Virus record (IMG/VR): IMGVR_UViG_3300017749_002634
Coordinates: 1 to 32,346 of that record
DNA length: 32,346 nucleotides
Source of the DNA: a virus
Direction: 5' to 3' (one strand)
The stretch's first letter is position 1. The number at the start of each line of letters is the position of its first letter. Below the pieces are notes generated by a model. That model searched no databases, was not told the DNA's origin, and saw nothing but the letters and a program-made list of their open reading frames with translations. The translations under genes and the position numbers were made by a program. Shown piece after piece: positions 4,974-30,922 of this stretch.

Positions 4974-5162
4974 ATGGCCGGTGTAAAAGCAAGAGGAATC
5001 ATTACTCATCATATGTCACGTCATCACAATGATAGAGAAATTAAACCTTGTAAATACATTGGCGAAGGAAAAGGCAAAGGCATAATGGTTGCTCAGTACA
5101 AAGACACTGGTGACCTTGTTGTTGATCAATCTGGCAATCCTATTCCTTGGAGCAGAGCATAG
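4974..5162 (+). CDS. Small protein, 62 aa, unknown
   Basis: Starts two bases after the upstream stop. It has a His/Arg-rich N-terminal half (HHMSRHHNDREIKPC) followed by a Gly/Lys segment and a short beta-like C-terminus (GDLVVDQSGNPIPW). The His/Cys content could bind a metal, but the spacing fits no known finger. It ends four bases before the hemC start, so the two are probably coupled. Confidence 0.65.
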   Translation: MAGVKARGIITHHMSRHHNDREIKPCKYIGEGKGKGIMVAQYKDTGDLVVDQSGNPIPWSRA

Positions 5163-5166
5163 ACTG

Positions 5167-6036
5167 ATGCAGATAGAGGTTGTCAAAGTAGGCAGTAGAC
5201 AATCCCCACTTGCTAGGATCCAGGCAGACAATGCCATATCAAGAATAGACTACCCCGCAGAAATAATCACAATGTTAGAGGTTGCAGACGAAGACCTCAG
5301 TCGTCCTGTGCATGAAATGGGAGGCAAAGGTATGTTCTGTACCAAATTGGAAAAAGCACTCATCAATCAACAGATACACTGTGCCATACACAGTGCAAAA
5401 GATTGTGCCACTATCGAAACACCAGGCACAGAATTGTTGGGAGTGGTTTACAGAGGCGATCCAAGAGATTGTGTGATAGGCGAACACAATCTACACGAAC
5501 TGCCATCTGGTTCAAGAATAGGAACTTCCGCTCCAAGAAGAATAGAAGCAATCAAGTTGATCAGACCAGACTGTCATGTGGTTGAAGTGAGAGGCAATGT
5601 GAACACAAGACTGAACAAACTGCGTGACAAACAAGTGGACGCATTGATACTGGGACAGAGTGTGATTGATCGTATGTCGTTGGATGTTCCACATCATACC
5701 ATTTCAGAAGAAGTTATACTGCCTGCCGCAGGCGCCGGCAAAGTTGTTGTGCAAGTGCGATCAGATGATACACAAAACAAAGCGATATGGTATCCTGCAA
5801 TTGATTGGTTGGCATCACAAGAGTTGTGGATTGAACGTGGTGTGTTGAGAGCAGTGGAAGGTGACTGTCACACAGCAGTTGGAGTCAGAGCCAGAGTGCA
5901 TGAAGATGTTCAAAAATTAGAATTGAGAGCAACCAGTATCATAGATGATGTGTTGGAATTTTTCAAACTGGAAGGCGACCTCACAGATGCTCCTGCCATG
6001 ATAGAAGAAATCAGCATCAAAATCGCACATAACTGA
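5167..6036 (+). CDS. hemC: Hydroxymethylbilane synthase (porphobilinogen deaminase)
   Basis: Joins four porphobilinogen molecules into hydroxymethylbilane, the linear precursor of heme and other tetrapyrroles, in the cytosol. Visible hallmarks are GSRQSPLA at 9-16, GGKGMF at 52-57, the catalytic Asp79 in HSAKD, the Arg pair 124-125 in GTSAPRR, RGNVNTRL at 142-149, and Cys234 in EGDCHTAVG, which carries the dipyrromethane cofactor. All key residues are kept and the length (289 aa against about 310) is near normal, so it should be active. I chose the ATG at 5167 because the family N-terminus begins there; the upstream ATG at 5089 lies inside the previous gene. It probably shares the transcript of the small basic genes and is a host-derived metabolic gene. 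Confidence 0.95.
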   Translation: MQIEVVKVGSRQSPLARIQADNAISRIDYPAEIITMLEVADEDLSRPVHEMGGKGMFCTKLEKALINQQIHCAIHSAKDCATIETPGTELLGVVYRGDPRDCVIGEHNLHELPSGSRIGTSAPRRIEAIKLIRPDCHVVEVRGNVNTRLNKLRDKQVDALILGQSVIDRMSLDVPHHTISEEVILPAAGAGKVVVQVRSDDTQNKAIWYPAIDWLASQELWIERGVLRAVEGDCHTAVGVRARVHEDVQKLELRATSIIDDVLEFFKLEGDLTDAPAMIEEISIKIAHN

Positions 6037-6900: not shown

Positions 6901-7503
6901 ATGCAAAGCATTCAATTTCCAAATCTAGGTTATGTGGAACAAACTGTAACAGATGACCAAATTAGTTTGTTAAACAAATGGGTAGCAAACATTGATCACC
7001 AAACAGCATTAATTGATCACTCTCATGTAGGCACAATCACAAACGAATACAAGATCAAAGATGAGGATGTCAAACAAGAACTGTCCAAAATACTTGGTCC
7101 AATGTGTGAACAATATTGTAAAGATATGCATTACAAAGTAGAAAACAAACCTATCGGACTTAAAACTGCTTGGTGCAACGTTCAACAATCTGGAGAATAT
7201 TTTGCGGCACACACTCACAACGGAGTATTTTCTTTTGCATTATGGTTAGAAGTTCCTTTCACACAAGATGATGAACGTGCATGGAGAGAAGCACGTGGCA
7301 AATCAGGCAGAGAAACTGCGTCATTTCAATTCCATTATACTGATGCATTAGGACGTATCACTCCTGAAGTACTTGAAGTTGATGCTACATGGGAAAATAA
7401 AATTATATTGTTTCCCGGAGAGATGATGCATTCTGTTACACCTTATTATTCCACACAAGACAAAAGAATAGTTGTGTCAGGAAATATTGACTATCTAAAT
7501 TAA
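6901..7503 (+). CDS. Putative 2OG-Fe(II) oxygenase (PF13759-like), second copy
   Basis: A 200-aa single-domain protein with the features of phage 2OG-Fe(II) oxygenases: AAHTHNG at 102-108 (metal His104 or His106), a following hydrophobic strand FSFALWLEVPF, ILFPGEMMHSV at 169-179 with the distal His177, and Arg189 for 2-oxoglutarate. The target is unknown. The ATG at 6901 opens with IQFPNLGYVEQ, which fits the usual start of the family; the longer frame to 6841 runs through the GC-rich hairpins and is rejected. No good ribosome site or promoter is seen directly upstream. The stop codon overlaps that of the convergent DnaE-like gene in the sequence TTAA. Confidence 0.75.
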   Translation: MQSIQFPNLGYVEQTVTDDQISLLNKWVANIDHQTALIDHSHVGTITNEYKIKDEDVKQELSKILGPMCEQYCKDMHYKVENKPIGLKTAWCNVQQSGEYFAAHTHNGVFSFALWLEVPFTQDDERAWREARGKSGRETASFQFHYTDALGRITPEVLEVDATWENKIILFPGEMMHSVTPYYSTQDKRIVVSGNIDYLN

Positions 7504-9131
7504 TCTTCCAACCAATTTTGAAACGAATGGAGTTCTACATCTTGACATTCCACATAGTCTGAATTGTTATGATGTTTAATTTTACCTCTACCAGAAATTA
7601 CATCTCCATCTCTATGACTGAATGGTTTTTTAACTGTGATGTCTATGTATTGTCCAGGACCTATTCCTAGTGTAACAAATGTTACGTACTTTCCATTTTT
7701 ACCTTTGAAAACTCTGCCATTGGCAATAACTCCGGCAAACTGAACATAATCTAGATACTGTTGTTGGACATGACATTTAGGAATAAATCCTCTTCTCCAC
7801 CAGCCTGGTTCATTGTCGATGCCCCAACGTTCTGCTTCTGTATTGTACACCCAACGTCTATACGAACCTTCACAATGTTTTAAACAAGCCTCCCAAAACT
7901 TTTTAGGATTGTGTGCCTTTTGATATGCTAGTGCCCAAATCAATCTGCCCAAGTTGACCGCATGGGCTCTACATAAACCAAATCCAGACAGTGTCATTAG
8001 TGTGTTAATTGCTTCTTGTTTGCGTGGATGTTTGCCCAATCTATTTACGAACTCTATAATTTTTTCATCGTTCTTTTTAGCAAATGCTCTGCGGTACATA
8101 TCTGCTTCATACATATCGATACCAATAATATTTGAAATAATTTCAATAGCATCGTCTTCGAACACAATAGAATCTTGTACGCCTTCTTTAGTCCAGTCAT
8201 TAAACATAGATGCTTTTTGTCTGCCAGTCATCGCCACAGGTCTTATCATAGCAGTAGCAAACACACAGTCGTAAACACTTTTAGGTTGTATTGCTCTAAA
8301 CAATCTACGCATGGCTGGTGACTCACCTTGTGTTACTCCTAACACATCTCCCCTACTCAATAACTTTGATGTTGCTTCGTCTTCAATAGGATAATCTGTT
8401 AAGTTCATACTAGAATCTATTTCTAATAACTGACTTAATCCTCTGTTAGAAAGTATGTCAACTTTTAGATGTTCTAAATCTTCTACTTCATATTTGTCTA
8501 GCAGTATTTGATTGTCAGCAGAAATTAAACTTTTAGGTAACTGTCTATCGAACATTATGATTCCGCCACAATGTTTAGATATACATCTTTTTTTACCTAA
8601 CAGTTTTTGTTCTATGCGTTTTGCTTCAATAGGATCGATATCGTAATCTTCATACTTAAATTTGCGTGGCAGTTTGCCTTTTGCACCCAATCGCTTTGCC
8701 GCTTCGCGTTTTGCTGACTTGGGTTGATACTTGACATAGTTAGATATCCTTGCTGTCTTGCCCGGCCATTTTTTAAAAATACGTTGCATCACTTCTGCTT
8801 GTTTGTGATGTTCGAAGTCTATGTCCACATCAGGTAAATCATCTCGTAGTGGATTCATAAAACGTGCAACCGGTATGTTCCACTGTACTGGGTCAACATC
8901 TGTTATACCCAGCAGATAACACACAAGACTAGATCCTGCTGAACCTCTTGTCATGTGTTTTAAATCTGATGTGATGTCTATGATGTCACAAATTTTTAAA
9001 AAGTATTCTGTGAATCTTTGTTTAAGAATTAATTCAAATTCTTCTGCTAGTCTTTTTTGGTACACTTCACTGTTGGGCATCTGCCTTTTAAAACGTTCCG
9101 TGAGCCTTTGTATATTTTCTAAATCATTCAT
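7500..9131 (-). CDS. DnaE-like family C DNA polymerase protein without PHP domain
   Basis: Resembles the palm, fingers and OB parts of the bacterial replicative polymerase alpha subunit. Visible landmarks: RGSAGSSLV..LLGITDVDP at 62-81, PDVDIDF at 100-106 with the first two catalytic Asp, KHCGGII near 186, the third Asp225 in LKVDIL, SGFGLCRAHAVNLGR, and a C-terminal OB fold (AGVIANGRVFKGKNGKYVTFVTL). At 543 aa it is half the usual length of about 1,160; the N-terminal PHP nuclease and part of the palm are absent. A late box lies at 9156-9163 and GAGAGG precedes the ATG. It may be an auxiliary polymerase, a repair enzyme or a non-catalytic factor. A second mini-DnaE is at 14239-14799. Confidence 0.85.
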   Translation of the reverse strand: MNDLENIQRLTERFKRQMPNSEVYQKRLAEEFELILKQRFTEYFLKICDIIDITSDLKHMTRGSAGSSLVCYLLGITDVDPVQWNIPVARFMNPLRDDLPDVDIDFEHHKQAEVMQRIFKKWPGKTARISNYVKYQPKSAKREAAKRLGAKGKLPRKFKYEDYDIDPIEAKRIEQKLLGKKRCISKHCGGIIMFDRQLPKSLISADNQILLDKYEVEDLEHLKVDILSNRGLSQLLEIDSSMNLTDYPIEDEATSKLLSRGDVLGVTQGESPAMRRLFRAIQPKSVYDCVFATAMIRPVAMTGRQKASMFNDWTKEGVQDSIVFEDDAIEIISNIIGIDMYEADMYRRAFAKKNDEKIIEFVNRLGKHPRKQEAINTLMTLSGFGLCRAHAVNLGRLIWALAYQKAHNPKKFWEACLKHCEGSYRRWVYNTEAERWGIDNEPGWWRRGFIPKCHVQQQYLDYVQFAGVIANGRVFKGKNGKYVTFVTLGIGPGQYIDITVKKPFSHRDGDVISGRGKIKHHNNSDYVECQDVELHSFQNWLED

Positions 9132-9260: not shown

Positions 9261-10718
9261 TTAAGATTCGTCGTCTAAATTAGTTAAGAATTCTCTTAAT
9301 TTTGTTGAATCTGTTTTAGGTTCAATTCTTCCTATGCTATCACCTTTTGTTGGGTCTGGTGGAGTAATAGGTTTGCCTGCTTCTACACTGTTGTCTGTGA
9401 GATCAGGAGTTACAGTTGTGCCCTGTTTAATTGAATTGTATATTGTACTTTTACGCTTGTCAAATTCTTGATACTCTGAATCATCTGCAAGATCTCTGAT
9501 ACGCAAACTGTCCATATCAAATTCTAAATCAATTTTCATTCCAACACCACTTGATGATCTTGTTTTCATCAATTGTATTTGATATCTTCCACGTTCTCTC
9601 ATTGCTCTACTTGTAAAAATACCAAACACGTTGTCAGCAGTTTGTATTTTACTTAATCCACCACTGATGTGCGAATGATCAAATTCTATTTCTTCTACAG
9701 CACCTCTGTTCAACTGTGCCGCTGTTACAAACACTGTGTTCAATTCCATTGACAAGTTACGTAGTTCTTCAGAAACAAATTTGTCTTTGATAAACAAATC
9801 GCTCGGAGAAACCTTTCTACTGTTTGGCATCATCAAATCTAGATAGTCTACAAGCAATACATCAACTTTACTGTTTGTTTTAATTTCATATTCTTTGATG
9901 TAAGACCTTACATCATTTGCATTTTTACCACTAGGCATATATTTGATTTGGAATTTTCCTGCTTTTTTTCCAATCATTTTTACTTTCATTTCTACACCAT
10001 CTAAGTCTTTAAATATTTCTTTTGTAGGAATATCTGTAAGCATAGAATCTAATCTCATAGCAACCAACGATTCACTCAATTCAAATGTTAGATACACAAC
10101 ATTCATTCCTTCTAGTGCAAAGTTACAACCTAAGTTTGCAAGGAATAAAGACTTACCTGCACCAGAACCACCTGCAAATATATTCAACTCACCTTTGTTG
10201 AATCCACCAAAGAGTCTTCTGTCTAAAGATTCCCAACCTGTTTTGACCTGACCATTCTGATCTTTCAATCCTAACAGTCTTGATTTCGGATCTTCAAAGT
10301 AATCTGTTCCTATGTCCTTGTGCAGTCCTATTTGTACTGCGTCTTTGACCAACACTTCAACAGGACCATATTCACCTTTTTCAAGCATATCTGCACTTTT
10401 TAAGATTGCTCTTTCTAAACTTTTGTGTCTAGTAAACGTCTCAAAATCTTCTAGTAACCAATCATAGTGCGATTCATTGAGTCCTGTAGGAACTTTTAAA
10501 TTAGATTTGCAACTGGAGTTTACAATTTCTTCTGTGGGCAATGCATTATGTTTACCAACATATTCATCTACGAACTGTGCCGCATCTTGCAATTTTCTAT
10601 CAAACAGTGTGTGATCAAATATAGACTGACAACGTACAAATGTTTCTGCGTCAGCCAACATCATTTCTAGATATACTTTTTGTATATCATAGCCGTATTC
10701 TTTATTTTGCTTTACCAT
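9261..10718 (-). CDS. gp41: Replicative DNA helicase, DnaB/T4 gp41 type
   Basis: Hexameric 5'-3' helicase that unwinds the fork and works with the primase encoded upstream. An N-terminal helical domain (about 1-130) is followed by a RecA fold with Walker A GGSGAGKS at 183-190, the ELSESLVAMR helix near 213, Walker B LLVDYLDLMM near 296, and the AAQLNRG segment that carries the sensor Gln. The length (485 aa) matches T4 gp41 (475). I chose the ATG at 10718, not that at 10742, because a perfect sigma70 promoter places transcription start one base before the 10718 ATG. The gene overlaps the carbamoyltransferase by 17 bases, so it can also be read from the primase transcript. The polar C-terminal tail of about 60 residues is probably disordered. 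Confidence 0.93.
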   Translation of the reverse strand: MVKQNKEYGYDIQKVYLEMMLADAETFVRCQSIFDHTLFDRKLQDAAQFVDEYVGKHNALPTEEIVNSSCKSNLKVPTGLNESHYDWLLEDFETFTRHKSLERAILKSADMLEKGEYGPVEVLVKDAVQIGLHKDIGTDYFEDPKSRLLGLKDQNGQVKTGWESLDRRLFGGFNKGELNIFAGGSGAGKSLFLANLGCNFALEGMNVVYLTFELSESLVAMRLDSMLTDIPTKEIFKDLDGVEMKVKMIGKKAGKFQIKYMPSGKNANDVRSYIKEYEIKTNSKVDVLLVDYLDLMMPNSRKVSPSDLFIKDKFVSEELRNLSMELNTVFVTAAQLNRGAVEEIEFDHSHISGGLSKIQTADNVFGIFTSRAMRERGRYQIQLMKTRSSSGVGMKIDLEFDMDSLRIRDLADDSEYQEFDKRKSTIYNSIKQGTTVTPDLTDNSVEAGKPITPPDPTKGDSIGRIEPKTDSTKLREFLTNLDDES

Positions 10719-11712
10719 GTTCCTTATTATACCACATTTCATTTACGTTGTCAATGTGATTGTTGTATTTGGCGGCAACTGCTCCTATACAACTACCTGG
10801 GTCTCCAGGATTTTTTGGCACCCATATATCGTCCCAAACGTTTTCCAATTTGTGTCTAGCAGTTTGGTTTAATGCACATCCTCCTACCAAAACAATGTTT
10901 GATGTTTTGATGTTCATCTGTATCCATGAACTTGCACACATTAATACTTGTTCAAAAATGTGTTGAGTGGTTGCGGCGATGTCAGCCATGTCTTCTTCTG
11001 TTTTTAATTCTGGTCTCCACCAATTACAACCTCTGTGTAGATTTACTCTTGTTTTAAAAGGCATTCTAGATTCAATTATTTCTTCCATAAAAAATCTATA
11101 ATTTTTTCTCCAATTACCTTTTTTGGCAAGTTGTTCTAATTTGTGTTCTTCTGCGTTTGCTTTGAATCCACATCTTTGTGTCATCGCTGAATAAAACAAA
11201 CCAATACTGTGAGGATATTTTTGTGTGTATTTTTTTTCAAGTTTATTCCCATGCCCATGCCATATAGTAAATGTTTCAAACTCTCCTATTGAGTCAAGCA
11301 CCACAACTGCCGCATCTTTAAACGGCGATGAATAATATCCATATGCCGCATGACTGTGATGATGATCTATATACTCAATCGGTACATGGTGAATACCTGA
11401 TTTACTTAAAAATTTCTTAATGTTGTTTTCTTTATAGTTCCAACCTTGACCTGCTATAAATTGTCTTACAGTTTTCTTTAAAGGTTTTTCATAAAAATAT
11501 ATTTTTGCAGGGTAGGCCCATTTAGGATTTGACCTTACCTCAGCCATTAATTTAGGACACAGTGTGGGATCTCCTGGAATACCACTAAAGTCTTTTGACA
11601 TCCCTGCCCATTTTAATTTTAATTTATAGTGATCAGTTAGTCCTGCTACCTTCCACTCCATCACTGCCAAACTGGCATCATGATTATTTCCTGTGATTCC
11701 CCAAACTATCAT
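10702..11712 (-). CDS. Carbamoyltransferase, NodU/TobZ-like N-terminal domain
   Basis: NodU-type enzymes carry a carbamoyl group from carbamoyl adenylate to sugars or antibiotics; phage versions may modify nucleotides or glycans. The ASKHA-type fold is visible: GITGNNHDAS at 5-14, the metal-binding DHHHSHAA at 116-123, FYSAMTQRCGFKANAEEHK at 173-191, VGGCALNQ at 276-283 and PGDPGSCIGA. At 336 aa it lacks the separate C-terminal domain of full-length NodU (about 560 aa), which holds the carbamoyl-phosphate-using site in part of the family. Its start overlaps the upstream 58-aa gene by ATGA. The helicase promoter lies inside its last codons. The acceptor cannot be told from sequence; the nearby sugar cassette or DNA bases are candidates. 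Confidence 0.85.
   Translation of the reverse strand: MIVWGITGNNHDASLAVMEWKVAGLTDHYKLKLKWAGMSKDFSGIPGDPTLCPKLMAEVRSNPKWAYPAKIYFYEKPLKKTVRQFIAGQGWNYKENNIKKFLSKSGIHHVPIEYIDHHHSHAAYGYYSSPFKDAAVVVLDSIGEFETFTIWHGHGNKLEKKYTQKYPHSIGLFYSAMTQRCGFKANAEEHKLEQLAKKGNWRKNYRFFMEEIIESRMPFKTRVNLHRGCNWWRPELKTEEDMADIAATTQHIFEQVLMCASSWIQMNIKTSNIVLVGGCALNQTARHKLENVWDDIWVPKNPGDPGSCIGAVAAKYNNHIDNVNEMWYNKEHGKAK
10726..10754 (-). promoter_or_regulatory. Consensus early promoter, predicted leaderless start of gp41
   Basis: TTGACA (10754-10749), 17 bases, TATAAT (10731-10726) with TG one base before the -10. The ATG at 10718 follows after seven bases, so transcription should start at or one base before it. The promoter lies within the 3' end of the carbamoyltransferase gene. 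Confidence 0.8.
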
Positions 11713-14238: not shown

Positions 14239-14799
14239 TTATTGATTATTGAGTTGTTCGCAAATTAAGTTCATATGAACTACTACTGCAACTGCATATG
14301 ATGTTGCATGACTTTTTTTAAAGAAATATCCTTCAGTTGGCTTTATCCAGACTTCTTTCATTATCTCTTCCCAGGATTTATTAACTAGATATCTTTTGCT
14401 TGGTCGTATAATTGCTAATACAGCCGCAAGTTGTTCTATATTTTGAGGTTTCAGTTTTTTTAATATTTCACTGTGACCATTTAAATGAAATACCTGATCA
14501 CTAAAATCTTTTGCTTCTAATAGTTCCCACATCGGAGTTTTTGTCATCAGTTCCACTAGATGTTTTTCATTTTTTACTTTTTCATAGATGCTTACATTTA
14601 ACAAGTCTATTTTAAAGTAGCCTCGATCTTCTGCTAGTTTGTAATCAATTGTGCTGATATTGTCTAATGGATTGTGAGGTACTTCAGTAAAGTAAACACC
14701 TGTGTTGTGTTTTTTACCTGTATCTAATTTTGCAACTCTGTGTTTTAATTTGTTTAATATGTTATTTCTATCTGCAAAGTCTATATCTATATCAGGCAT
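14239..14799 (-). CDS. Mini DnaE-like protein with family C catalytic motifs, 186 aa
   Basis: The protein begins with the polymerase motif PDIDIDF (Asp3, 5 and 7), then has KHNTGVYFTEVP, a third candidate metal ligand Asp65 in GYFKIDLLN, an AAVLAIIRPSKR segment and KKSHATSYA at 161-169. In order, these correspond to the palm Asp pair, the HAGG-like region, the third palm Asp and the K.HA.AY motif of DnaE, compressed into 186 residues. There is no PHP, thumb or OB domain. I recall a similar protein in cyanophages without an assigned role. It overlaps endonuclease III by 8 bases and closes the nine-gene operon. It may be a repair gap-filler or a regulator; activity is unproven. Confidence 0.75.
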   Translation of the reverse strand: MPDIDIDFADRNNILNKLKHRVAKLDTGKKHNTGVYFTEVPHNPLDNISTIDYKLAEDRGYFKIDLLNVSIYEKVKNEKHLVELMTKTPMWELLEAKDFSDQVFHLNGHSEILKKLKPQNIEQLAAVLAIIRPSKRYLVNKSWEEIMKEVWIKPTEGYFFKKSHATSYAVAVVVHMNLICEQLNNQ

Positions 14800-21430: not shown

Positions 21431-22258
21431 ATGACCAAATATTCCGTTGTTACCACATTTAACCAAAATGGATATAATGTGTATGCTAATAAATTTATCA
21501 AAAGTTTTAACGACAAGGTGGATAAGCGAATACCTCTTGTTGTGTATGCTGAGGATTGTCAGCCTGTCGGAGACGATAGAACATTAATTTTTGATGCCAA
21601 GCAAACTCTTGTAAAGTTAAATGATTTCAAATCTAAATGGAGCAGTGTTCCAAAAGCAAATGGCAAGTGTCCTCCAGAAATAAAAGCAAGAAGACCTAGG
21701 GACTGGCACAAAGAATTTAAATGGGACGCAATTAGATTTGCAAATAAAGTTTATGCTATATTTCATGAAGCAAAAAGAACTGACGCAGATGTTTTAATTT
21801 GGATGGATGCTGACAGTATAGTTCACAGTCCTGTAACACAAGAAGACTTTGAAAGACTATTACCAACTTCTTTTACTTTACATTATTTAGGTAGAGGAAA
21901 AAAATGGCCCGAGTGCGGATTTTATGGATTAAATTTGAAGTCAGCAGAATGTCAAAATTTTTTACAACAATTTGAACGAATGTACGAAGATGCTGACAAA
22001 GGAATTTTTACATTGGAAGAATGGCATGATTCTTTTGTGTTTGATGTTGTGTTAAAAAGACATCGACAATCTTTCCCTCAAAGTCCTATAAAAGATTTTA
22101 GCGGACACTTAATAAGTGGCGAAGGACATCCTTTAATTAATTGTGAACTTGGTGCTTACTTTGACCATTTAAAAGGTGATAGTAGAAAAGAAAAAGGAAG
22201 TAGTTTACCTAAAGATTTAAAAGTTAAGCGGGTTGAGACGTACTGGAAGCAGATTTAG
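21431..22258 (+). CDS. GT-A type glycosyltransferase, 275 aa
   Basis: The opening MTKYSVVTTFNQNGYNVYAN and the DAD at 126-128 (in LIWMDADSIV), which would bind the metal and nucleotide sugar, mark a GT-A fold. The segment LHYLGRGKKWPECGFYGLN follows in the usual acceptor-loop position. I chose the ATG at 21431; the longer frame to 21308 is antisense to the start of the neighbouring gene. It is the only plus-strand gene among the sugar genes and its 3' end overlaps the next minus-strand gene by 35 bases. This placement suggests a later insertion or separate timing. Confidence 0.8.
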   Translation: MTKYSVVTTFNQNGYNVYANKFIKSFNDKVDKRIPLVVYAEDCQPVGDDRTLIFDAKQTLVKLNDFKSKWSSVPKANGKCPPEIKARRPRDWHKEFKWDAIRFANKVYAIFHEAKRTDADVLIWMDADSIVHSPVTQEDFERLLPTSFTLHYLGRGKKWPECGFYGLNLKSAECQNFLQQFERMYEDADKGIFTLEEWHDSFVFDVVLKRHRQSFPQSPIKDFSGHLISGEGHPLINCELGAYFDHLKGDSRKEKGSSLPKDLKVKRVETYWKQI

Positions 22259-23204
22259 TTGCCCATTTTCTCATATGAAGCCAACATTGTCCATTTTTAA
22301 CTTCTTCTAAAGTCCAGTGCATTTGTGCTAATCTTTCAACAAATAATTGTCTATCGAAAGATTTATGATCTTCTATTTCATTAAATTGATGATGTGCAAC
22401 AGTACTTGCTTGAGCTCTAGAGGCATCTGTCAAAAATGTAGGAATGCCTTCAATAACACTTGCACACGTCGGACTACTGTTGTGTCCTACCAACGAATGT
22501 GCTGTATGAAAATCTTCTTGCAATGATTTTGTTTGGCTAATAAAAATATCTGAAAACGTAGTTGGATCACCTTTCATCCATTGTGCCAACACGTGTCTGT
22601 GTGTTGTAGTATTTTTATCACCGGGATGAAATCTTATTAAAATTGTGCGTTTAGTGTGCATTCTTATCTGTGTTACAGTTTCCTTTATCCATTCCTGTAC
22701 ACCTTTGCCATCCATACTCCAACCACCATCACGCTGACAACAAAGAAGGATATGACCTTCTTTTTGATTTAATCTCCATGGTTTTAATTCTATGTTCAAG
22801 TCTTTTGATATCTTTTTCCATCTTTCTGGATCGGGATGGACATTGCAATATTCTGCTGTGCCAGGAAAAATTCCGTCGTAACCGTATCGTAAATAACCTC
22901 TTAATTGTGCAGGATCTTTCCACAAAAATAAACTGCTGTCTACAATGATGCATCTTTTTCCTTTGCGTATTTGATTTTCAAATATGTTTTTTCTTAAATT
23001 AAGATGCGGAGTATTTTTACTGCTTTTGTGTACGAAGCCTTGTATAACCGCAACATCGGCTTCAATTATTTGTTTAGAACTTGTAACTAATCCTTTGTCA
23101 CCACAACGATTTACTCCTTCTATAAAATTTCTAATGATCATAGGTTTTTGTGGATTTTTATTTCCAGGTGGAATAACCTTCATGTAAGATATTACTGTAA
23201 TCAT
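22224..23204 (-). CDS. Capsule-polysaccharide transferase-like protein, paralogue B
   Basis: A second copy of the family at 20578-21414, here 326 aa. Shared landmarks are HILLCCQRDGGW near 151, IKETVTQIRMHTKRTILIRFHPG near 173-195 and SLVGHNSSPTCASVIEGIPTFL near 238-259, the last two aligning closely with paralogue A. The N-terminal region (MITVISYMKVIPPGN) is its own. It overlaps paralogue C by ATGA and the plus-strand glycosyltransferase by 35 bases at the 3' ends. It is the last gene of the cassette read from 25633. The donor and acceptor are unknown. Confidence 0.7.
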   Translation of the reverse strand: MITVISYMKVIPPGNKNPQKPMIIRNFIEGVNRCGDKGLVTSSKQIIEADVAVIQGFVHKSSKNTPHLNLRKNIFENQIRKGKRCIIVDSSLFLWKDPAQLRGYLRYGYDGIFPGTAEYCNVHPDPERWKKISKDLNIELKPWRLNQKEGHILLCCQRDGGWSMDGKGVQEWIKETVTQIRMHTKRTILIRFHPGDKNTTTHRHVLAQWMKGDPTTFSDIFISQTKSLQEDFHTAHSLVGHNSSPTCASVIEGIPTFLTDASRAQASTVAHHQFNEIEDHKSFDRQLFVERLAQMHWTLEEVKNGQCWLHMRKWATKSASSTSQPA

Positions 23205-23995
23205 TTTAAATTATACATTTCAATTATTTTTAAAGCAGTACCTTCATTAAGTTCTGGCACTGTGTATTGACAATAAGATAACCATTTTAGCCAATGTCTT
23301 ACTTGATCTGCGTTTGGTCTGTATGCTTGTTCAATGCGTCCTAAATCTTTTAACGTTACATAATCAGCGGCTGTCGGAGCAGTAGCAAACGCAGGAACTC
23401 CATAACATACTGATTCTATTGCGGCAATTGATTGGTAGGTAACAACAGCATACACGTTATCTTTATCTAGTTGAGAAAATAAACTTCCGCCACCAACTCT
23501 TTCTCTTCGTAAACCTTTGTCTCTAATAATAATAGGTCTATCTGTGTGTTGTCTTAATTTTGCAGTTGTTTCGTCTATCCATTGTTGTCTTGTAATGCCG
23601 TAAAACTTGCAAGGCTTTTCACTTGGAGTTACCAGTAAAATACTTCGTCCTTGTGGCTTCCAACCATTAAAAATTACTTCCGGATGTCTTTGTGATAAAC
23701 GTCTGTATCTGTCATCAGGTACATCACGTACCTGTGTGTTTTGCACATTATTCTTTACTAGTCTATGATAATGCTTACGTTTGGATAAGTTACCCACATA
23801 TCCCGTGTCTATGTAGTAAAAAGTTCTTTCGTCTTTCCAACATTTATGAATATATTTGCCTTTAGTCATACCACGCAACACAACAGGATTGTCAACGCTT
23901 GTTTGTTGAACTTTGTCCCAGGTGCTGTATTCTGCTTCAGTGCCTTTCATAAAATCTTTTATGATGGCATCTTCGTGGTCCAGTGCGTAGATCAT
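23201..23995 (-). CDS. Capsule-polysaccharide transferase-like protein, paralogue C
   Basis: Third member of the family, 264 aa. It keeps SILLVTPSEKPC near 132, IDETTAKLRQHTDRPIIIRDKG near 151-172 (with Asp-Lys in place of the His-Pro of paralogues A and B), and AVVTYQSIAAIESVCYGVPAFA near 192-213. The loss of the HP pair may mean altered or lost activity. The N-terminus (MIYALDHEDAIIKDFMKG) is short. It overlaps the 76-aa gene upstream by one base and paralogue B downstream by four. Confidence 0.7.
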   Translation of the reverse strand: MIYALDHEDAIIKDFMKGTEAEYSTWDKVQQTSVDNPVVLRGMTKGKYIHKCWKDERTFYYIDTGYVGNLSKRKHYHRLVKNNVQNTQVRDVPDDRYRRLSQRHPEVIFNGWKPQGRSILLVTPSEKPCKFYGITRQQWIDETTAKLRQHTDRPIIIRDKGLRRERVGGGSLFSQLDKDNVYAVVTYQSIAAIESVCYGVPAFATAPTAADYVTLKDLGRIEQAYRPNADQVRHWLKWLSYCQYTVPELNEGTALKIIEMYNLK

Positions 23996-24225: not shown

Positions 24226-24915
24226 TTATTCTCCTTTGTTATTCATCATTTGATTTAAGTAATCTTTCCAAACATCACCGTATTCGCAGTCTCTGTAATT
24301 TTTAAACCAAGGACCGCCTTCTGTGTAATGAATTGCTTTAGGTGTTCCATCGGCTGGTTCTTGATACCATCCGACCAACCAATTCCATTCTGGATTCAAT
24401 GCACCCACTTCTTCATCTTTAAGCCATGCAAATCTATGAAAGTATGCTCCATCATAGTTTGGGTTGTTCACTAAATCTACTGATAATTTTTCGTTTGATG
24501 GATGTCCACAGTTGTACAATACCATTGAACTCCAATTTTTACATGGATACAAAGTTTGTTTTTGACCATCCATTTTTATTCCAGGCTTTGGTGTGTAATC
24601 ATGTTGTACGCACATCACAGCATACTTGTTGTCTGCCTGTGCAAATAATTCTTTTACGTCTTTTAAAAATACAATGTCCGAATCGCAAAACAATGCCCAA
24701 CCATCATAGTTTGCCAATGCAGGAACTAAAAATCTCGTGAATGTAAATTCTGTTGATGCAAGTTTATCTTCCCCACGCCAATACCATTTGTCTTGACGTA
24801 GATTATTTTGATTTAATGGAATAACTTCTGCATCTGTGCTGTGCTTGTATATCGAGTACTCGCACACTTGATAAGCAATATCTTCTCTCGTATCATAACC
24901 TACAAATATTTTCAT
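24226..24915 (-). CDS. GT-A type glycosyltransferase (GT8-like), 229 aa
   Basis: Transfers a sugar from a nucleotide donor to an unknown acceptor. It opens MKIFVGYDTREDIAYQVCEY, the standard first strand of GT8-like enzymes. DSD at 78-80 in WALFCDSDIVFL is the metal-binding motif, followed by KNWSSMVLYNCGHP and IHYTEGGPWF, which supply further donor-site residues. I chose the ATG at 24915, one base after the epimerase stop; the longer frame would run back into that gene. The set epimerase, GT and capsule-like transferases forms the distal half of the cassette. Confidence 0.85.
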   Translation of the reverse strand: MKIFVGYDTREDIAYQVCEYSIYKHSTDAEVIPLNQNNLRQDKWYWRGEDKLASTEFTFTRFLVPALANYDGWALFCDSDIVFLKDVKELFAQADNKYAVMCVQHDYTPKPGIKMDGQKQTLYPCKNWSSMVLYNCGHPSNEKLSVDLVNNPNYDGAYFHRFAWLKDEEVGALNPEWNWLVGWYQEPADGTPKAIHYTEGGPWFKNYRDCEYGDVWKDYLNQMMNNKGE

Positions 24916-24916
24916 A

Positions 24917-25633
24917 CTATAATTTAACCTCAAATCCGTGTTTGTCTAGGAACTTCTGAACAGTCCATTTAGGATTCCATCCTAGTTTTTTCATTTCGCT
25001 TGGGTCTGCTTTTGACGTTTGTCTCTCTAAAATAGATCCAGGTTGCACTGGTAAATTAGGAGCAATTTTTCTTATTTCAACATTTTCTCCTGTGCCGATA
25101 TCGATTGAACCTACATAATCGCTCTTGATTAATATTTCTATAGCATCACATAAGTCTTCAATGTGTACAAAATCTCTACTGTGTTCAGTTACGTATTCCA
25201 ACGTGCCCATTAAGAGTTTATCAAAAAACATACCTTGTCTATTTGTTTCGCCATACACAGTGTGGAATCTCATTGCTACCTTATTGTTGTGTGGAATGGC
25301 CTCTATAACGTTCTTAGACGCCGCGTAAGGGTTCAACCAAGGCTCATACTGACTGCTTGAACTGGCAAACAAAACACGTGTGTTTGCGTAGTGTTTTAAA
25401 ATTTTATGCGTGGCAATGACGTTGTTATCCCAATAGTGTTTTGGATTTTCCATAGATTTTCTCACTCCACCTACCCCGGCTAAATGAATTACTAAATCTA
25501 CTTCTGGTAATTTGGCATTTAAAATATTGCCATTATCTTTGATATCAAGACCAATTACTGTGTGGTTATTTAAAAGTCGTTTGTGTAGATACTGTCCTAT
25601 AAAACCTTTATGTCCTGTTAGCAAAATATTCAT
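24917..25633 (-). CDS. NAD-dependent nucleotide-sugar epimerase/dehydratase, 238 aa
   Basis: Short-chain dehydrogenase fold that converts nucleotide sugars. The NAD-binding GHKGFIG is at 7-13, LAGVGG at 51-56, the Ser-rich SSSSQY at 91-96 and the catalytic Tyr103/Lys107 in YAASK. RFHTVYGETNRQGMF follows as in GalE-type enzymes. It is shorter than the usual 310-330 aa, with a reduced C-terminal substrate domain. The ATG at 25633 is supported by the family N-terminus and by a perfect promoter whose -10 ends six bases before it; this replaces a longer frame running into the cupin gene. Confidence 0.9.
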   Translation of the reverse strand: MNILLTGHKGFIGQYLHKRLLNNHTVIGLDIKDNGNILNAKLPEVDLVIHLAGVGGVRKSMENPKHYWDNNVIATHKILKHYANTRVLFASSSSQYEPWLNPYAASKNVIEAIPHNNKVAMRFHTVYGETNRQGMFFDKLLMGTLEYVTEHSRDFVHIEDLCDAIEILIKSDYVGSIDIGTGENVEIRKIAPNLPVQPGSILERQTSKADPSEMKKLGWNPKWTVQKFLDKHGFEVKL

Positions 25634-25639
25634 TGCTTC

Positions 25640-25668
25640 ATTATAACTTACACTTTGACTTTTGTCAA
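25640..25668 (-). promoter_or_regulatory. Consensus early promoter, predicted leaderless start of the epimerase
   Basis: TTGACA (25668-25663), 17 bases, TATAAT (25645-25640), six bases, ATG at 25633. It occupies the only real gap in the long run of overlapping genes from uvsX to the capsule-like genes. Confidence 0.85.
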
Positions 25669-25673
25669 TAAAA

Positions 25674-26024
25674 TTAGGATTTGGTTCCAACTGTTCTACG
25701 TTCAATATCATCGTGGTTGAACTCTGCCCAATACAATTCAAAAGCAATGCCGTCTTCAACTCCTTCGAATTGATGAAACTTGCCTGGCTTAACAGTGGTG
25801 TAATCGCCTGCGTTTAATACTGTTTCATCAACAAGACCACTTTGTTCTGCGTCTTGCCATACCCGTACTATCATTTTTCCAGACTCTACAAAAAATCCGT
25901 TCCATTTATATTTGTGCTGATGTTCTGAACATTTGTATCCTGCTTTGAACTCAATACGATGAAATTCTAACACTCCATTTGCATGAATTAATTCTGTTTT
26001 GCCCCAAATTTTTCCTGCTTTCAT
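25674..26024 (-). CDS. Cupin-fold protein, mannose-6-phosphate isomerase type II-like, 116 aa
   Basis: A single beta-barrel domain with the two cupin motifs: CSEHQHKYKWNGFFVESGKM near 33-52 (His36, His38 and the later Glu as metal ligands) and GDYTTVKPGKFHQFEG near 74-89 with the distal His. Related small cupins act as sugar isomerases, epimerases or binding domains in glycan pathways. The start TAATG overlaps the upstream methyltransferase stop by one base. It is the last gene before the internal promoter and probably prepares or modifies a sugar for the transferases. Confidence 0.8.
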   Translation of the reverse strand: MKAGKIWGKTELIHANGVLEFHRIEFKAGYKCSEHQHKYKWNGFFVESGKMIVRVWQDAEQSGLVDETVLNAGDYTTVKPGKFHQFEGVEDGIAFELYWAEFNHDDIERRTVGTKS

Positions 26025-26635
26025 TATTTGCTCCTTGCACAAAAGTAAAATTGTTTTGTGTCAAATTCACTTTCAATGTTGTCTGGATAAACTCTATCTA
26101 TGGATTCTATAATAAAATGTTTTTCTAAAGACTTAATCATGTTAGTAACTGTTCTGTATTTTGAACTGTAATTTGACTTTAATTTATCTGAGTATACATT
26201 TACATATTCGTCTTCGCTTTTTAGTGTACAAGGTGATCTTAAAAATAATTTTTTTGTGTTCAATGATCCATAAATTTTTTCAACAACTTCATCTTCAAAA
26301 ATAAAAGGCAACATACCTGCACAAATTATATTGTCTACTTTAGGTAAAGTGGTTAAATCATCTTCATAAACATTAAAATCACGTGCTTGAATCTTGCTGT
26401 GTAAATTTTTTATTAAATGTGTTGCAAAATCGTATCCGTGGTATTGATTGAAGTCTGTAAGTTCGACCAAACAGTTTAATAATGCTCCGTCACCACAGCC
26501 TAAATCAAGTAATGAATCTCCTGAAAGTCTAGGAACAAGGTACTGTAATTCATGTAAACGTCTTTGTTTTATAGTGCCATACTCTGGATAATGTGTTTGT
26601 GTTGTCCAGAATTCTTTAGCAACACTCTTACTCAT
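26024..26635 (-). CDS. SAM-dependent methyltransferase, class I, 203 aa
   Basis: Motif I is SLLDLGCGDGALLNC at 41-55, the SAM-binding loop, followed by the acidic strand HGYDFATHLI and the post-I region YEDDLTTLP. IICAGMLPFIFEDEVVEKI gives the motif IV/V region. The rest (RTVTNMIKSLEKHF and a C-terminal strand pair) fits a small-molecule or sugar methyltransferase. The substrate cannot be read from sequence; the sugar cassette around it makes a glycan likely. It overlaps the FkbM-type gene by eight bases. Confidence 0.85.
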   Translation of the reverse strand: MSKSVAKEFWTTQTHYPEYGTIKQRRLHELQYLVPRLSGDSLLDLGCGDGALLNCLVELTDFNQYHGYDFATHLIKNLHSKIQARDFNVYEDDLTTLPKVDNIICAGMLPFIFEDEVVEKIYGSLNTKKLFLRSPCTLKSEDEYVNVYSDKLKSNYSSKYRTVTNMIKSLEKHFIIESIDRVYPDNIESEFDTKQFYFCARSK

Positions 26636-27386
26636 ACGAAACGTCCTTGTGTTTGTATGCTCTATCTCTGTGGAATTCTTTGTAAACTTCGTAGCCTAAG
26701 TCTGTCATAAGGGTAGCAATTTTATCATCAGTCCACCCGTATTTTGCACCAGATTGATTCCATTCAACAACTATAAGAGGTTTTGCTCTTTTTATCATTT
26801 CCGTTGCACCAACGATTGTTTCCCACTCAGAGCCTTCTATATCTAAATGAATACAATCAGGATTAACTCCTAATGAATCTAATTTAATTTTAGGTATATC
26901 ACCGTTTGGCTCTATGTAGTTTGCTCCTAAATTTTTACGTCCTTTAAAATCAGGTGCAACCATTTTTACAGGGTCGTTGTCGTTGCCTAATGCAGTTTGA
27001 AATTTAAACACATTTGTTTCAGGACAGTTATTAATTAAACACACAAACCATCTGTGGTCTGGTTCAAATGTAATTACTTTTTCAAACATTGTACTGTAAA
27101 GTTTTGGATAAAGTCCTGCATTACCACCTGCTTGAATTATTAATTTTCTTTTGTTTTGTGGTAGCATTTTTATTATTTCATTTGGAAAATGAATAATGTT
27201 GGTAGAGCCGTCACTCCAAGCGGCCCTTTCATTTTTATGGAAAAATTCCCAAGTTAATATATCTTCTCTGGGCCATAACCATTCTCCTTGCATGTATGGT
27301 CCTGCTCTATATTCTAAATTATTTGCGTTTAAAAAGTCATTTGCTCTTTTAGTTGAATCTACTGGGTATATAAATTTATTTTTCAT
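26628..27386 (-). CDS. FkbM-family methyltransferase, 252 aa
   Basis: O-methyltransferase of the FkbM type, common in phage and bacterial glycan clusters. The SAM loop is IQAGGNAGLYPK at 84-95, the acidic strand is VITFEPDHRW at 104-113, and the family signature is IHLDIEGSEWE at 179-189. VVEWNQSGAKYGW near 206 closes the fold. The extra N-terminal 75 residues (MKNKFIYPVDSTKRA) are not typical. Both ends overlap neighbours, by eight bases and four bases. It probably caps a sugar hydroxyl. Confidence 0.88.
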   Translation of the reverse strand: MKNKFIYPVDSTKRANDFLNANNLEYRAGPYMQGEWLWPREDILTWEFFHKNERAAWSDGSTNIIHFPNEIIKMLPQNKRKLIIQAGGNAGLYPKLYSTMFEKVITFEPDHRWFVCLINNCPETNVFKFQTALGNDNDPVKMVAPDFKGRKNLGANYIEPNGDIPKIKLDSLGVNPDCIHLDIEGSEWETIVGATEMIKRAKPLIVVEWNQSGAKYGWTDDKIATLMTDLGYEVYKEFHRDRAYKHKDVSYE

Positions 27387-27970
27387 TTTGAATCTATTGT
27401 GTTAGTTCCTGCGTCCCAAATTTGTGTAACTGGTTCTATGTTGTCTTTGTGTTCTATTTTTTTAGCCGCAAACCAAAGTAAAACATCGTTTGTTGCCCAC
27501 TTTCCTTTGTTTGCGTCTGCAACATTATTTATGGACCAACCTTTTTTATGACTTAGATATGAATCCAATAATTGAAATCCATTTTTTTTAATAAATGTTG
27601 TAATTGCAACAGGATCTGTAACGTGTATCCCGTGTCGCCAATAACCATGTACAGGACTTACACCTATGAAGTGTCCACCAACTTTTACTAATTTTAAAGC
27701 ATTGCTCCAAGCCGTGTGGGCGTCCCAAATATGTTCTATTGTGCCAAGATTAAAAACAGTTTCAAATTTTTGATGTAATTCAGTCAAGTCACTTGTTAAA
27801 TCTGCATAATCTCCGCCATCAGGGTCTATGGTTTTGTAATCATCTACTTTAAAATATTCTTTTGCACTTATTGTCATATTAGTTGCTTGGTTGCCTAGCA
27901 TTAAGAATGGACTTTTATAATATGCTCGATATTTTTCGTAATTTTTTAAATGTTTGTTTATTATTGTCAT
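27383..27970 (-). CDS. Methyltransferase-like protein with weak SAM loop, 195 aa
   Basis: The C-terminal Rossmann part looks like class I methyltransferases: YKTIDPDGGDYADLT near 46-60, then FETVFNLGTIEHIWD near 69-83 in the place of motif IV/V, and KLVKVGGHFIGVSPVHG near 93-109. The first loop, FLMLGNQATNM, lacks the usual DxGxGxG, so SAM binding is uncertain. It starts at ATGA overlapping the upstream glycosyltransferase stop. It may be an active sugar methyltransferase with an unusual loop or a degenerate partner of its two neighbours. Confidence 0.7.
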   Translation of the reverse strand: MTIINKHLKNYEKYRAYYKSPFLMLGNQATNMTISAKEYFKVDDYKTIDPDGGDYADLTSDLTELHQKFETVFNLGTIEHIWDAHTAWSNALKLVKVGGHFIGVSPVHGYWRHGIHVTDPVAITTFIKKNGFQLLDSYLSHKKGWSINNVADANKGKWATNDVLLWFAAKKIEHKDNIEPVTQIWDAGTNTIDSK

Positions 27971-28614
27971 ATCCAATATTCCTGTACTAAAGGGTTATCT
28001 TTTTGTAAGTGAGGTTTTTTATTTTTGCCTGCGTATATAGTAAACGTGGGTGTTGTTAATGGATTTTCTTGTGCAATCATATGATGTTGCCAGTTTACAA
28101 ACTGTCCAACTTCATCATCCATAAATTTCATATTTGTTAATGATGCCTGTGTGTATGCTTGGTCACCAATTAGGTTGCCTTTATGATATTTAGACATAAT
28201 TGTCTGTGTATTACGTTTGAAATTTTCGTATATGAATGAATAGTCACCTTCCCAACTCATTATACTGCTGTTTGCATTTCCGCTTGTAGGTTTTACACTT
28301 TTAATCATATAAAAGTTTTTGTAATCTAGTTGATCTAAAATATATTCAAAATTATTGCAAATGATAATATCTAAATCCAAATAAAATACAGGACCATTAA
28401 ATAGATTAGGTCTAAACAATTCTATTTTACTCCACCAACCTATCCAATCGTTTTTTAATGGAATGGTTTCAATAGGAAGACTTATATTAGATAGGCAATG
28501 CAACTTATGTGGCTTGGTGTAGTTTCTTGCAATCATATTCTTTAATTTTATAACGTAGTCATGTGAATATGTTGTTTTTTTACTTTTGTGATATACACAA
28601 ACAAAATTAATCAT
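27967..28614 (-). CDS. GT-A type glycosyltransferase, 215 aa
   Basis: A compact glycosyltransferase. The first strand is MINFVCVYHKSK, WIGWWSKIELFRPNLFNGPVFYLD leads to DLD at 80-82 in YLDLDIII, the metal-binding motif, and LIGDQAYTQAS near 149 supplies the downstream acidic loop. NWQHHMI is likely in the donor site. The family is seen beside capsule and phage sugar genes. It overlaps the cytidylyltransferase gene by eight bases and the methyltransferase by four. Confidence 0.8.
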   Translation of the reverse strand: MINFVCVYHKSKKTTYSHDYVIKLKNMIARNYTKPHKLHCLSNISLPIETIPLKNDWIGWWSKIELFRPNLFNGPVFYLDLDIIICNNFEYILDQLDYKNFYMIKSVKPTSGNANSSIMSWEGDYSFIYENFKRNTQTIMSKYHKGNLIGDQAYTQASLTNMKFMDDEVGQFVNWQHHMIAQENPLTTPTFTIYAGKNKKPHLQKDNPLVQEYWI

Positions 28615-29596
28615 TGTTTTCCCATTCGTTACAACTGTATACGGAGTTAGGATAATATCTAATGTTGTTATTAGAAATAAGATTTTGCAAATAAGATTTC
28701 ATATCAAAGTTTTCTGTAATATCTTTTAATTCAATTGGTAGGTTTGTTATGTAGTAAGGAGGTTTGTGCCATGTCTCTCCGTTGGGTATTTTTTGTTTGT
28801 GTATTGTTGCTTCTATAATATCATTATGGGTATATTTTTTAAACTCTATACGTTCACCATCAGGTATACTAAATTCACTTAATCTAGTAATTGTTTCACC
28901 TTTTTTATAATGCACATTATTTGTTAAAAATATATCTTTGTAAGGAATGCATAAGCAAGGAATACAAGTGAAGCCTAATTCTTTCATTGCTTGAAGTCTG
29001 TTATTACCATCAACAACTATGTTAAGTTCTTTGTGTGTACCTACAGTAATAGGAGTGGAAAATATTTGTTCTTTTTTAATTTTAAATTTTAATTTTGCAA
29101 CTTTATCTGTATTATAATCTTCGTAAATGCTTAAACTATCCATAGGAAGCATTTTTAAATTATTAATATGTTCTATGTCTTTTCTGTCGTCGTTTATAAT
29201 TCTTTGTTTTATTTCAGTGCTTGATATACCTTCTGTTCTAGGAAAAAGCATCAATCTTATATTTTGTTCTTTGAGATAAAGTAAAGCATTTGTTCTGTCT
29301 CCACTGTGAACGTAATCATCTCCTTGCACAACTATATCAGGTTTTATTTTTGACCATAAATTTCTTTGATCAACATCGCTGTATTGTACAATTTCATCCA
29401 CAAACGGTAATGCTTTTATTTGTTTTTCTCTTTCTACAAAGTTTAAAGTTGGATACTTGCCTTTAGACTTTTTAACAGATTCGTCATCTTGAACACCAAC
29501 AATCAGATAATCGCCTTGTTGTTTTGCTCTTGTTAGTATGTTTATGTGACCCAAATGTAATGTGTCGAACACACCAGAAGTCATTACTTTAATCAT
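28607..29596 (-). CDS. Cytidylyltransferase fused to a ParB-like domain, 329 aa
   Basis: The first 135 residues are a TagD/GCT-type nucleotidyltransferase: SGVFDTLHLGHINIL at 7-21 with the HLGH motif, and FPRTEGISSTEI at 118-129, the RTEGISTT signature of glycerol-phosphate cytidylyltransferases. Residues 190-220 (VVDGNNRLQAMKELGFTCIPC) match the ParB/sulfiredoxin-like nucleotide-binding core (VDG.HRL.A). The remaining C-terminus (ERIEFKKYTHNDIIEATIHK) is unassigned. This fusion is unusual. ParB-like domains can hydrolyse CTP or phosphorylate small molecules (as in SbnI), so the enzyme may both phosphorylate and activate a polyol. The ATG at 29596 overlaps the upstream gene by eight bases. 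Confidence 0.8.
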   Translation of the reverse strand: MIKVMTSGVFDTLHLGHINILTRAKQQGDYLIVGVQDDESVKKSKGKYPTLNFVEREKQIKALPFVDEIVQYSDVDQRNLWSKIKPDIVVQGDDYVHSGDRTNALLYLKEQNIRLMLFPRTEGISSTEIKQRIINDDRKDIEHINNLKMLPMDSLSIYEDYNTDKVAKLKFKIKKEQIFSTPITVGTHKELNIVVDGNNRLQAMKELGFTCIPCLCIPYKDIFLTNNVHYKKGETITRLSEFSIPDGERIEFKKYTHNDIIEATIHKQKIPNGETWHKPPYYITNLPIELKDITENFDMKSYLQNLISNNNIRYYPNSVYSCNEWENND

Positions 29597-30215
29597 TCTT
29601 TTTCCAGTAATCCTTCCATCTTTGTATTTCATGAGGCTTGTCGAAATCGTCTGTTTCGTCATCAATATTTGTCCAATTTGTTTCGCACAGGTACTGTGTA
29701 CGTTTTACAGTTTTCCTTACGGGTGGAGAATTTAAATTCCATTTGCCAGTCTGGTATGCATACAAGTCCCATGACCAACATCGATTTATTTTCTTGTTCC
29801 AGTATGCTTCGCAAACTAATTTTAGCCAATGCCAAAACTGTGTATCAGACTTAAATGCCCAAAATTCACCATACTTTTTCAAGGCGTTTCCTCTTTTTCT
29901 TCCATAGTAATTTGTTGTTCCATTCAAAATAGTTTTTATTGCATTTTCTGAATAATACACGTCACCATATAACCAAATGTCTCCTTTAAGTTCTTCACAT
30001 CCTAGTAGACAACCTAAATCATTGCCTTTCATTGTGTTTACAAATTCGTTGTATTGAGGATACATTCCTTTTTCTGCAACAGTGACCCATATGTCTGTTT
30101 GTCCATTTTCTTTTAAAATCCTTACAGTTCTATCAACTAACTTTTCACCTTGTATGACAATAGAGTGTCTATTAAAAGTTTTTGCTGTTCCACCAGCCAT
30201 TATGATTATTCTCAT
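29589..30215 (-). CDS. MobA-like nucleotidyltransferase (NTP transferase), 208 aa
   Basis: The N-terminal strand and loop MRIIIMAGGTAKTFN is the nucleotide-binding start of sugar-phosphate nucleotidyltransferases and MobA-like proteins. IQGEKLVDRTVRILKENG follows, and DIWLYGDVYYS near 75 gives the acidic metal-binding motif. The C-terminal half is rich in Trp and Lys and not typical. Together with the cytidylyltransferase next door it probably makes an NDP-linked sugar or polyol for the transferases. It overlaps both neighbours. Confidence 0.8.
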   Translation of the reverse strand: MRIIIMAGGTAKTFNRHSIVIQGEKLVDRTVRILKENGQTDIWVTVAEKGMYPQYNEFVNTMKGNDLGCLLGCEELKGDIWLYGDVYYSENAIKTILNGTTNYYGRKRGNALKKYGEFWAFKSDTQFWHWLKLVCEAYWNKKINRCWSWDLYAYQTGKWNLNSPPVRKTVKRTQYLCETNWTNIDDETDDFDKPHEIQRWKDYWKKND

Positions 30216-30922
30216 ACGTCAGTCCTTGTGTAACTGTTTTTACTTTTTTTACTCTTGTCTAACCAGTACTTGGGATTGATTCTACACAAACTGTATTTTG
30301 TTTTCGTAAGTGCAACCGACTGTGCATTTACATGAACATCTGCTGGCAACATACCTTTATTTTTTGTAAATGCAATTAAAGATTTTGCACCTTGTGGCTT
30401 TATTATATAAGCATGAAGTCCTTTAATGCATTCTTTGTCGTAGTATTGAAACGCATTCTTTGACGTCGATGCTATTTTTTTAGGTTGATGTGTAATTACA
30501 TCATAATTTTCAAATTTTTCTAGATGGTCTTCGTAAACTGTAGATGTTCTACTGTATGCGTCTAGGTTGCATAGTTCGGAAAATTTGTCTACAATATCCT
30601 TAGGTATAGGACGCATGAACAATGCATCATGTTCCAATATCATTATGGGTTCATTTAATTCAATGCACTTCAACCAAAGTGAATAGTGTGAGCAAAAGCA
30701 ACCTCTTACTCCTTTTGTATCTCTTGTAAATTTTAATTTTGGAAATGGTCGCAAACCAAATTTTTTGTATGTTGGTGCAACATCATCAAGTTGTACTGCG
30801 TCAAATTTTGCGATATTTAAATTGATTTTTTTGCCTGATGCAATACAATCTTCAGCCAACTCCTCCGAAAAGGACCTGCCTTTCATTGTTATTACAAATG
30901 CTTTATGATCATATTGTTGCAT
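30212..30922 (-). CDS. Glycosyltransferase family 25 (LPS-type), 236 aa
   Basis: GT25 enzymes add galactose or related sugars to LPS or proteins. The family signature is GVRGCFCSHYSLWLKCIELNEP at 71-92 (GC..SH..LW), with the metal-binding EHD at 97-99 in MILEHDALF. HAYIIKPQGAKSLI follows as in the family. It is the first sugar gene behind uvsX and two small genes, and overlaps the upstream gene by 14 bases, so it is read on the recombination transcript. Confidence 0.88.
   Translation of the reverse strand: MQQYDHKAFVITMKGRSFSEELAEDCIASGKKINLNIAKFDAVQLDDVAPTYKKFGLRPFPKLKFTRDTKGVRGCFCSHYSLWLKCIELNEPIMILEHDALFMRPIPKDIVDKFSELCNLDAYSRTSTVYEDHLEKFENYDVITHQPKKIASTSKNAFQYYDKECIKGLHAYIIKPQGAKSLIAFTKNKGMLPADVHVNAQSVALTKTKYSLCRINPKYWLDKSKKSKNSYTRTDV

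Follow-up and report, generated by a model that had tools for sequence, protein, structure and literature searches.

What does a phage do with a protein in which a nucleotidyltransferase is joined to a domain of the ParB/sulfiredoxin (ParB/Srx) type, and on what compound would such a chain act? The question is raised by an open reading frame in IMG/VR virus record IMGVR_UViG_3300017749_002634, of which positions 1 to 32,346 were analysed; this whole stretch of 32,346 nucleotides is referred to here as the window. The ORF occupies positions 28607–29596, as an earlier note on this DNA had it, and lies on the minus strand, which that note omitted. It starts with an ATG at 29596, ends at 28607, and encodes 329 amino acids with no internal stop. 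The motifs HLGH (residues 14–17), RTEGISST (residues 120–127) and VDGNNRLQAM (residues 195–204), to which the earlier note had drawn attention, are all present in the translation.

The fusion is not a sequencing artefact, because the full-length single ORF recurs in six independent IMG/VR contigs (L001, L002, L003/L009, L007, L008 and L010). Two of these relatives are 100% identical to the window protein and the remaining four share 81–82% identity with it, while two further IMG/VR contigs end inside the ORF. All of the fusion-bearing contigs belong to one phage lineage. Between the window and the 81–82% relatives dS is near saturation and dN is low, with dN/dS of approximately 0.02–0.04 for the N-terminal domain and 0.05–0.17 for the C-terminal half; both halves are therefore maintained by purifying selection.

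A cytidylyltransferase-like domain makes up residues 1–134 (29195–29596, minus strand). Residues 6–132 match the Pfam family CTP_transf_like (PF01467; E value 4.6e-19; 69.4 bits against a cut-off of 21), in keeping with the earlier description of this part as TagD-like. Its matches in the PDB are ethanolamine-phosphate cytidylyltransferase (PDB: 3elb; E value 4e-27), in two repeats, and TagD (PDB: 1coz; E value 4e-20). Among the NCBIfam models the top match is rfaE_dom_II, heptose-phosphate adenylyltransferase (E value 3e-26; 92 bits), and TagD scores approximately 80 bits (E value 2e-22). Both scores fall far under the respective equivalog cut-offs (for TagD, 79.8 bits against 165.4), so that no NCBIfam model names the domain, and identity with TagD itself is not claimed.

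The N-terminal domain was aligned with TagD, three cyanophage proteins and E. coli HldE. The catalytic HxGH motif is represented by HLGH (29546–29557, minus strand), in which H14, G16 and H17 are invariant with TagD and HldE. The RTEGISST motif (29216–29239, minus strand) has R120-T121 in common with TagD, in contrast to E. coli HldE, which reads NFEDGCSTT at this site, and to the cyanophage proteins, which read R-[IV]. Because the RT pair is kept as in TagD, unlike in HldE and the cyanophage proteins, the alignment favours CTP as the nucleotide. With TagD (CTP:glycerol-3-phosphate cytidylyltransferase) and ethanolamine-phosphate cytidylyltransferase the phage domain shares HxGH, RTEGIS(S/T)T and its length. 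It differs from them in the kinase-like module that follows and in the sequence PFVD at residues 64–67, which does not match (R/K)(Y/W)VD, the dimer-interface signature of cytidylyltransferases (PMC4470507).

The C-terminal half (residues 138–329; 28610–29185, minus strand) matches the Pfam model ParB_N below threshold (E value 0.078; 13.5 bits against a cut-off of 26.3), and a closer relationship emerges with SbnI, the free L-serine kinase of staphyloferrin B synthesis in Staphylococcus aureus. A single-sequence phmmer search retrieved SbnI from the PDB with an E value of 3e-5. With a profile of five sequences SbnI was again first (E value 2e-7), followed by SerK, the ADP-dependent serine kinase of Thermococcus (E value 0.32), with ParB far behind. 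The NCBIfam models ranked in the same order, i.e., SbnI (E value 3e-9), SerK (E value 1e-6) and Noc (E value 0.0078). Through this sequence-profile homology to the solved SbnI and SerK structures, the C-terminal part is assigned the ParB fold that the earlier note had supposed. The SbnI equivalog cut-off of NCBIfam was not reached (36 bits against 350), and the phage module is thus a relative of SbnI, not its orthologue.

For a comparison between profiles, a set of SbnI-family proteins was gathered from plasmids, one of them adjoining a siderophore gene of the IucA/IucC type, the setting in which SbnI is expected. In hhalign the phage family matched this set with a probability of 97.5% (E value 8e-12); the 175 aligned columns begin at the first strand of the ParB fold and extend as far as the C-terminal IRxY...Y motif. 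To exclude the ParB core as the sole driver of the match, a profile was built from only the C-terminal part of SbnI proteins; the phage sequences scored 14–21 bits with it, and none of 1000 shuffles exceeded 7.6. The C-terminal half can accordingly be described more specifically than as ParB-like, since it is a homologue of SbnI from end to end. No helix-turn-helix or C-terminal dimerisation domain of the ParB/Noc clamp was found by Pfam at E values up to 0.1. AlphaFold2 models built from shallow alignments of five and eight sequences had pLDDT values of 36 and 41, respectively, and were set aside.

The kinase activity of SbnI requires Glu20 and Asp58, as related in PMC9641203 with reference to Verstraete 2018. 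Counting positions along the printed alignments places Glu159 of the phage protein (29120–29122, minus strand) opposite SbnI Glu20 and SerK Glu30, and Asp196, within VDGNNR (residues 195–200; 28997–29014, minus strand), opposite SbnI Asp58 and SerK Asp69. The invariant columns of the SbnI alignment include E159, D196, G197 and R200, and the C-terminal P-x-G and IRxY...Y motifs of SbnI are likewise kept. Other positions have changed. The His of the phosphate-binding motif DGxHR of SbnI and SerK is replaced by Asn199, and DGNNR is found in all of the fusion homologues, as opposed to DGVHR in SbnI. The W-x-H of SbnI near the pocket reads N-x-H, with Trp replaced by Asn two residues before the conserved H229, and the middle region is approximately 65 residues shorter than that of SbnI. 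With SerK only the core of approximately 80 residues aligns.

The gene stands in a co-directional run on the minus strand that carries glycan-type genes. Upstream, and sharing 8 bp with it (AATGATTAA), is a gene for a possible sugar-nucleotidyltransferase-like protein of 208 amino acids (29589–30215; phrog_33187, E value 9e-6; weak NCBIfam match, 0.002), preceded by a glycosyltransferase of family 25 (30212–30922; PF01755, E value 1e-19). On the downstream side the fusion gene overlaps again, by AATGATTAA, with a gene for a glycosyltransferase-like protein of 215 amino acids (27967–28614; phrog_1962 glycosyltransferase, E value 1e-22). The run, which comprises three methyltransferase-like genes in all, includes an FkbM-type methyltransferase (26628–27386; PF05050, E value 1e-7; TIGR01444, E value 1e-11), a methyltransferase (26024–26635; PF08242, E value 3e-7), a cupin (25674–26042; PF07883, E value 2e-7; phrog_7851, E value 6e-13), an NAD-dependent nucleotide-sugar epimerase/dehydratase (24917–25759; PF01370, E value 3e-22; phrog_540, E value 7e-43) and a GT8-like glycosyltransferase (24226–24933; PF01501, E value 1e-5) with a homologue in Pelagibacter phage Mosig. 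Gene order and gene overlaps are conserved in every relative contig long enough to show them. Genes of the glycan type in pelagimyophages have been argued to modify the O-chain of the host (PMC7029224). No dedicated phosphotransferase was recognised next to the fusion gene. At the end of the glycan block (22224–23995, minus strand) lie two conserved ORFs with no Pfam or PHROGs match, and the missing transferase for a CDP-activated product could be among them.

Nucleotidyltransferases of this superfamily have repeatedly become joined to the kinase that acts one step earlier, as in HldE, NadR and RibF, and in NadR and RibF the nucleotidyltransferase is N-terminal, as in the phage fusion. Because a kinase-like half, a CTP-type half and a glycan operon match this pattern, the reading that fits best is that of a bifunctional kinase/cytidylyltransferase encoded in a phage operon for glycan modification, with serine as its default substrate, which we regard as marginally probable. 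The design itself is already known, and what is new, as far as our searches reach, is the fold of the kinase that takes part in it: the kinase parts of HldE, NadR and RibF are of the PfkB, P-loop or flavokinase type, whereas that of the phage has the ParB/Srx fold.

To our knowledge, every characterised kinase of the SbnI/SerK sub-family acts on free serine. Since SerK moreover rejects threonine and homoserine (PMC5120207), this makes serine the default acceptor. We infer the following two-step reaction, including both activities and the way they are coupled, the compound acted upon and the eventual fate of the product. The C-terminal SbnI/SerK-type module would use ATP (or ADP) to phosphorylate a small free alcohol at its hydroxyl, by default converting L-serine into O-phospho-L-serine. 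The N-terminal domain, of the type found in TagD and ethanolamine-phosphate cytidylyltransferase, would then condense the phosphate ester with CTP to a CDP-derivative and PPi. The CDP-derivative is expected to be CDP-serine or a close relative, and neighbouring transferases would place the phospho-substituent on a glycan of the host surface or of the virion. We tentatively propose that one chain produces CDP-serine, or the CDP-activated form of a different amino-alcohol or hydroxy acid, from the free compound, CTP and ATP or ADP, and that this serves to decorate surface glycans with phosphoserine-type groups. The earlier note had suggested phosphorylation followed by activation with CTP, and this part of its idea gains from the full-length homology to SbnI and the retained catalytic Glu and Asp; for the polyol that it named as substrate there is no specific support, free serine being what the nearest kinases use.

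Several features count against the bifunctional reading, namely, the DGNNR and N-x-H replacements, the loss of approximately 65 residues, PFVD and the top score of rfaE_dom_II, and in addition the lack of a recognised adjoining phosphotransferase and of any description of a phosphoserine cytidylyltransferase or of CDP-serine in the literature searched. The changes near the pocket may leave room for an acceptor other than serine. The same two-step enzyme could then use ethanolamine, glycerol, a hydroxy acid or a sugar phosphate, an alternative that we consider rather unlikely. It would account for the replacement of Trp and His by Asn and for the shortened middle region, and the N-terminal domain does resemble cytidylyltransferases for ethanolamine-phosphate and glycerol-phosphate, but the substrate range of the known sub-family kinases, including the discrimination shown by SerK, speaks for serine.

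A second alternative gives the C-terminal half no catalytic role and makes it a nucleotide- or serine-binding regulator of the transferase domain, e.g., a sensor of CTP or ATP. Domains of the ParB fold, which bind CTP, ATP or GTP, are frequent fusion partners of other domains, and the change of GxHR to GNNR likewise favours this alternative. However, the catalytic Glu and Asp are both kept, the C-terminal region of SbnI is retained although it is superfluous for a bare ParB-type sensor, and kinases are the best matches. Regulation explains less than the bifunctional reading, because that region and the catalytic Glu would be unnecessary, and we judge it improbable. For the sensing of CTP, which the earlier note had offered as its other option, no positive support was found, the kinases scoring well ahead of the ParB and Noc models.

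Least probable is a role of the N-terminal domain in an ADP/GDP-heptose-like pathway, as in cyanophage clusters, with the C-terminal half acting on a sugar phosphate: besides the rank of rfaE_dom_II, it can call upon the related cyanophage nucleotidyltransferase, which adjoins cupin, epimerase, phosphoheptose isomerase and carbohydrate kinase genes, and upon the report of rfaE in pelagimyophages (PMC7029224), but the phage domain keeps the RT pair, which E. coli HldE lacks and which reads R-[IV] in the cyanophage proteins, the scanned ORFs of the window include no recognisable phosphoheptose isomerase or PfkB-type kinase, and the SbnI/SerK family does not consist of sugar kinases.

If the bifunctional reading is correct, the ParB/Srx fold, mostly known for DNA segregation, joins the kinases fused to this nucleotidyltransferase superfamily and gains another biosynthetic use. 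SbnI is encoded among siderophore genes and SerK is a stand-alone archaeal enzyme of cysteine synthesis, whereas the phage module is encoded in a glycan operon and sits behind a cytidylyltransferase. The significance of the fusion lies in this meeting, within one chain, of two rarities: a free-serine kinase module of the SbnI type away from siderophore and cysteine metabolism, and a cytidylyltransferase to which it may pass its product directly. Should the substrate be serine, a CDP-activated amino acid and a phosphoserine-type glycan decoration are predicted, and a marine phage may thus make an unusual activated building block for sugars of the cell surface or the virion. In a large survey devoted to fusions of the ParB-CTPase fold (PMC12704722), neither cytidylyltransferase nor nucleotidyltransferase is named in the main text, and nothing relevant on a cytidylyltransferase with ParB in phages was found in the literature searched.

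Scans of IMG/VR, including DNA patterns joining RTEGISST to DGxxR, revealed no second fusion lineage, and the other viral TagD-like proteins found there are without any kinase module. The other hits to the DNA patterns were rejected, as they contain no such fusion in frame. Among INPHARED phages and PLSDB plasmids the fusion is absent and only the N-terminal domain is present. No relative was found in bacterial genome contigs with exact 7-residue patterns; since such patterns would miss distant relatives, fusions in bacteria are possible. Distant DGNNR and DGAHR hits (L030–L035) were rejected as unrelated ParB-like proteins. Two of these loci (L034, 4340–5107; L035, 5818–6585) encode a different phage ParB-like protein of 256 amino acids, which carries DGNNR and, in its C-terminal part, a segment similar to a phosphatase loop (CERGQSRSA).

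The window, a phage contig, encodes UvsX, UvsY, a DnaB-like helicase, a primase and DNA polymerase. Large phages, PA5oct and SCTP-2 among them, have the nearest relatives of the helicase and of the phrog_11058 protein, and two genes of the glycan island have relatives in Pelagibacter phage Mosig. No match to a defence system was obtained. A homologue of porphobilinogen deaminase (HemC) is encoded at 5089–6036 on the plus strand (PF01379, E value 1e-54). Its ten matches in the phage collection are all below 60% identity, at 29–36% among the matches listed, and hemC has been reported from a deep pelagimyophage group (PMC7029224). Two separate ORFs (7500–9131 and 14239–14799, minus strand) match DNA polymerase and are divided by genes for the helicase, a carbamoyltransferase and the primase, which suggests that the polymerase is split. 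The carbamoyltransferase, of the NodU/NolO type (10702–11712, minus strand), overlaps the helicase ORF and lies outside the main glycan block.
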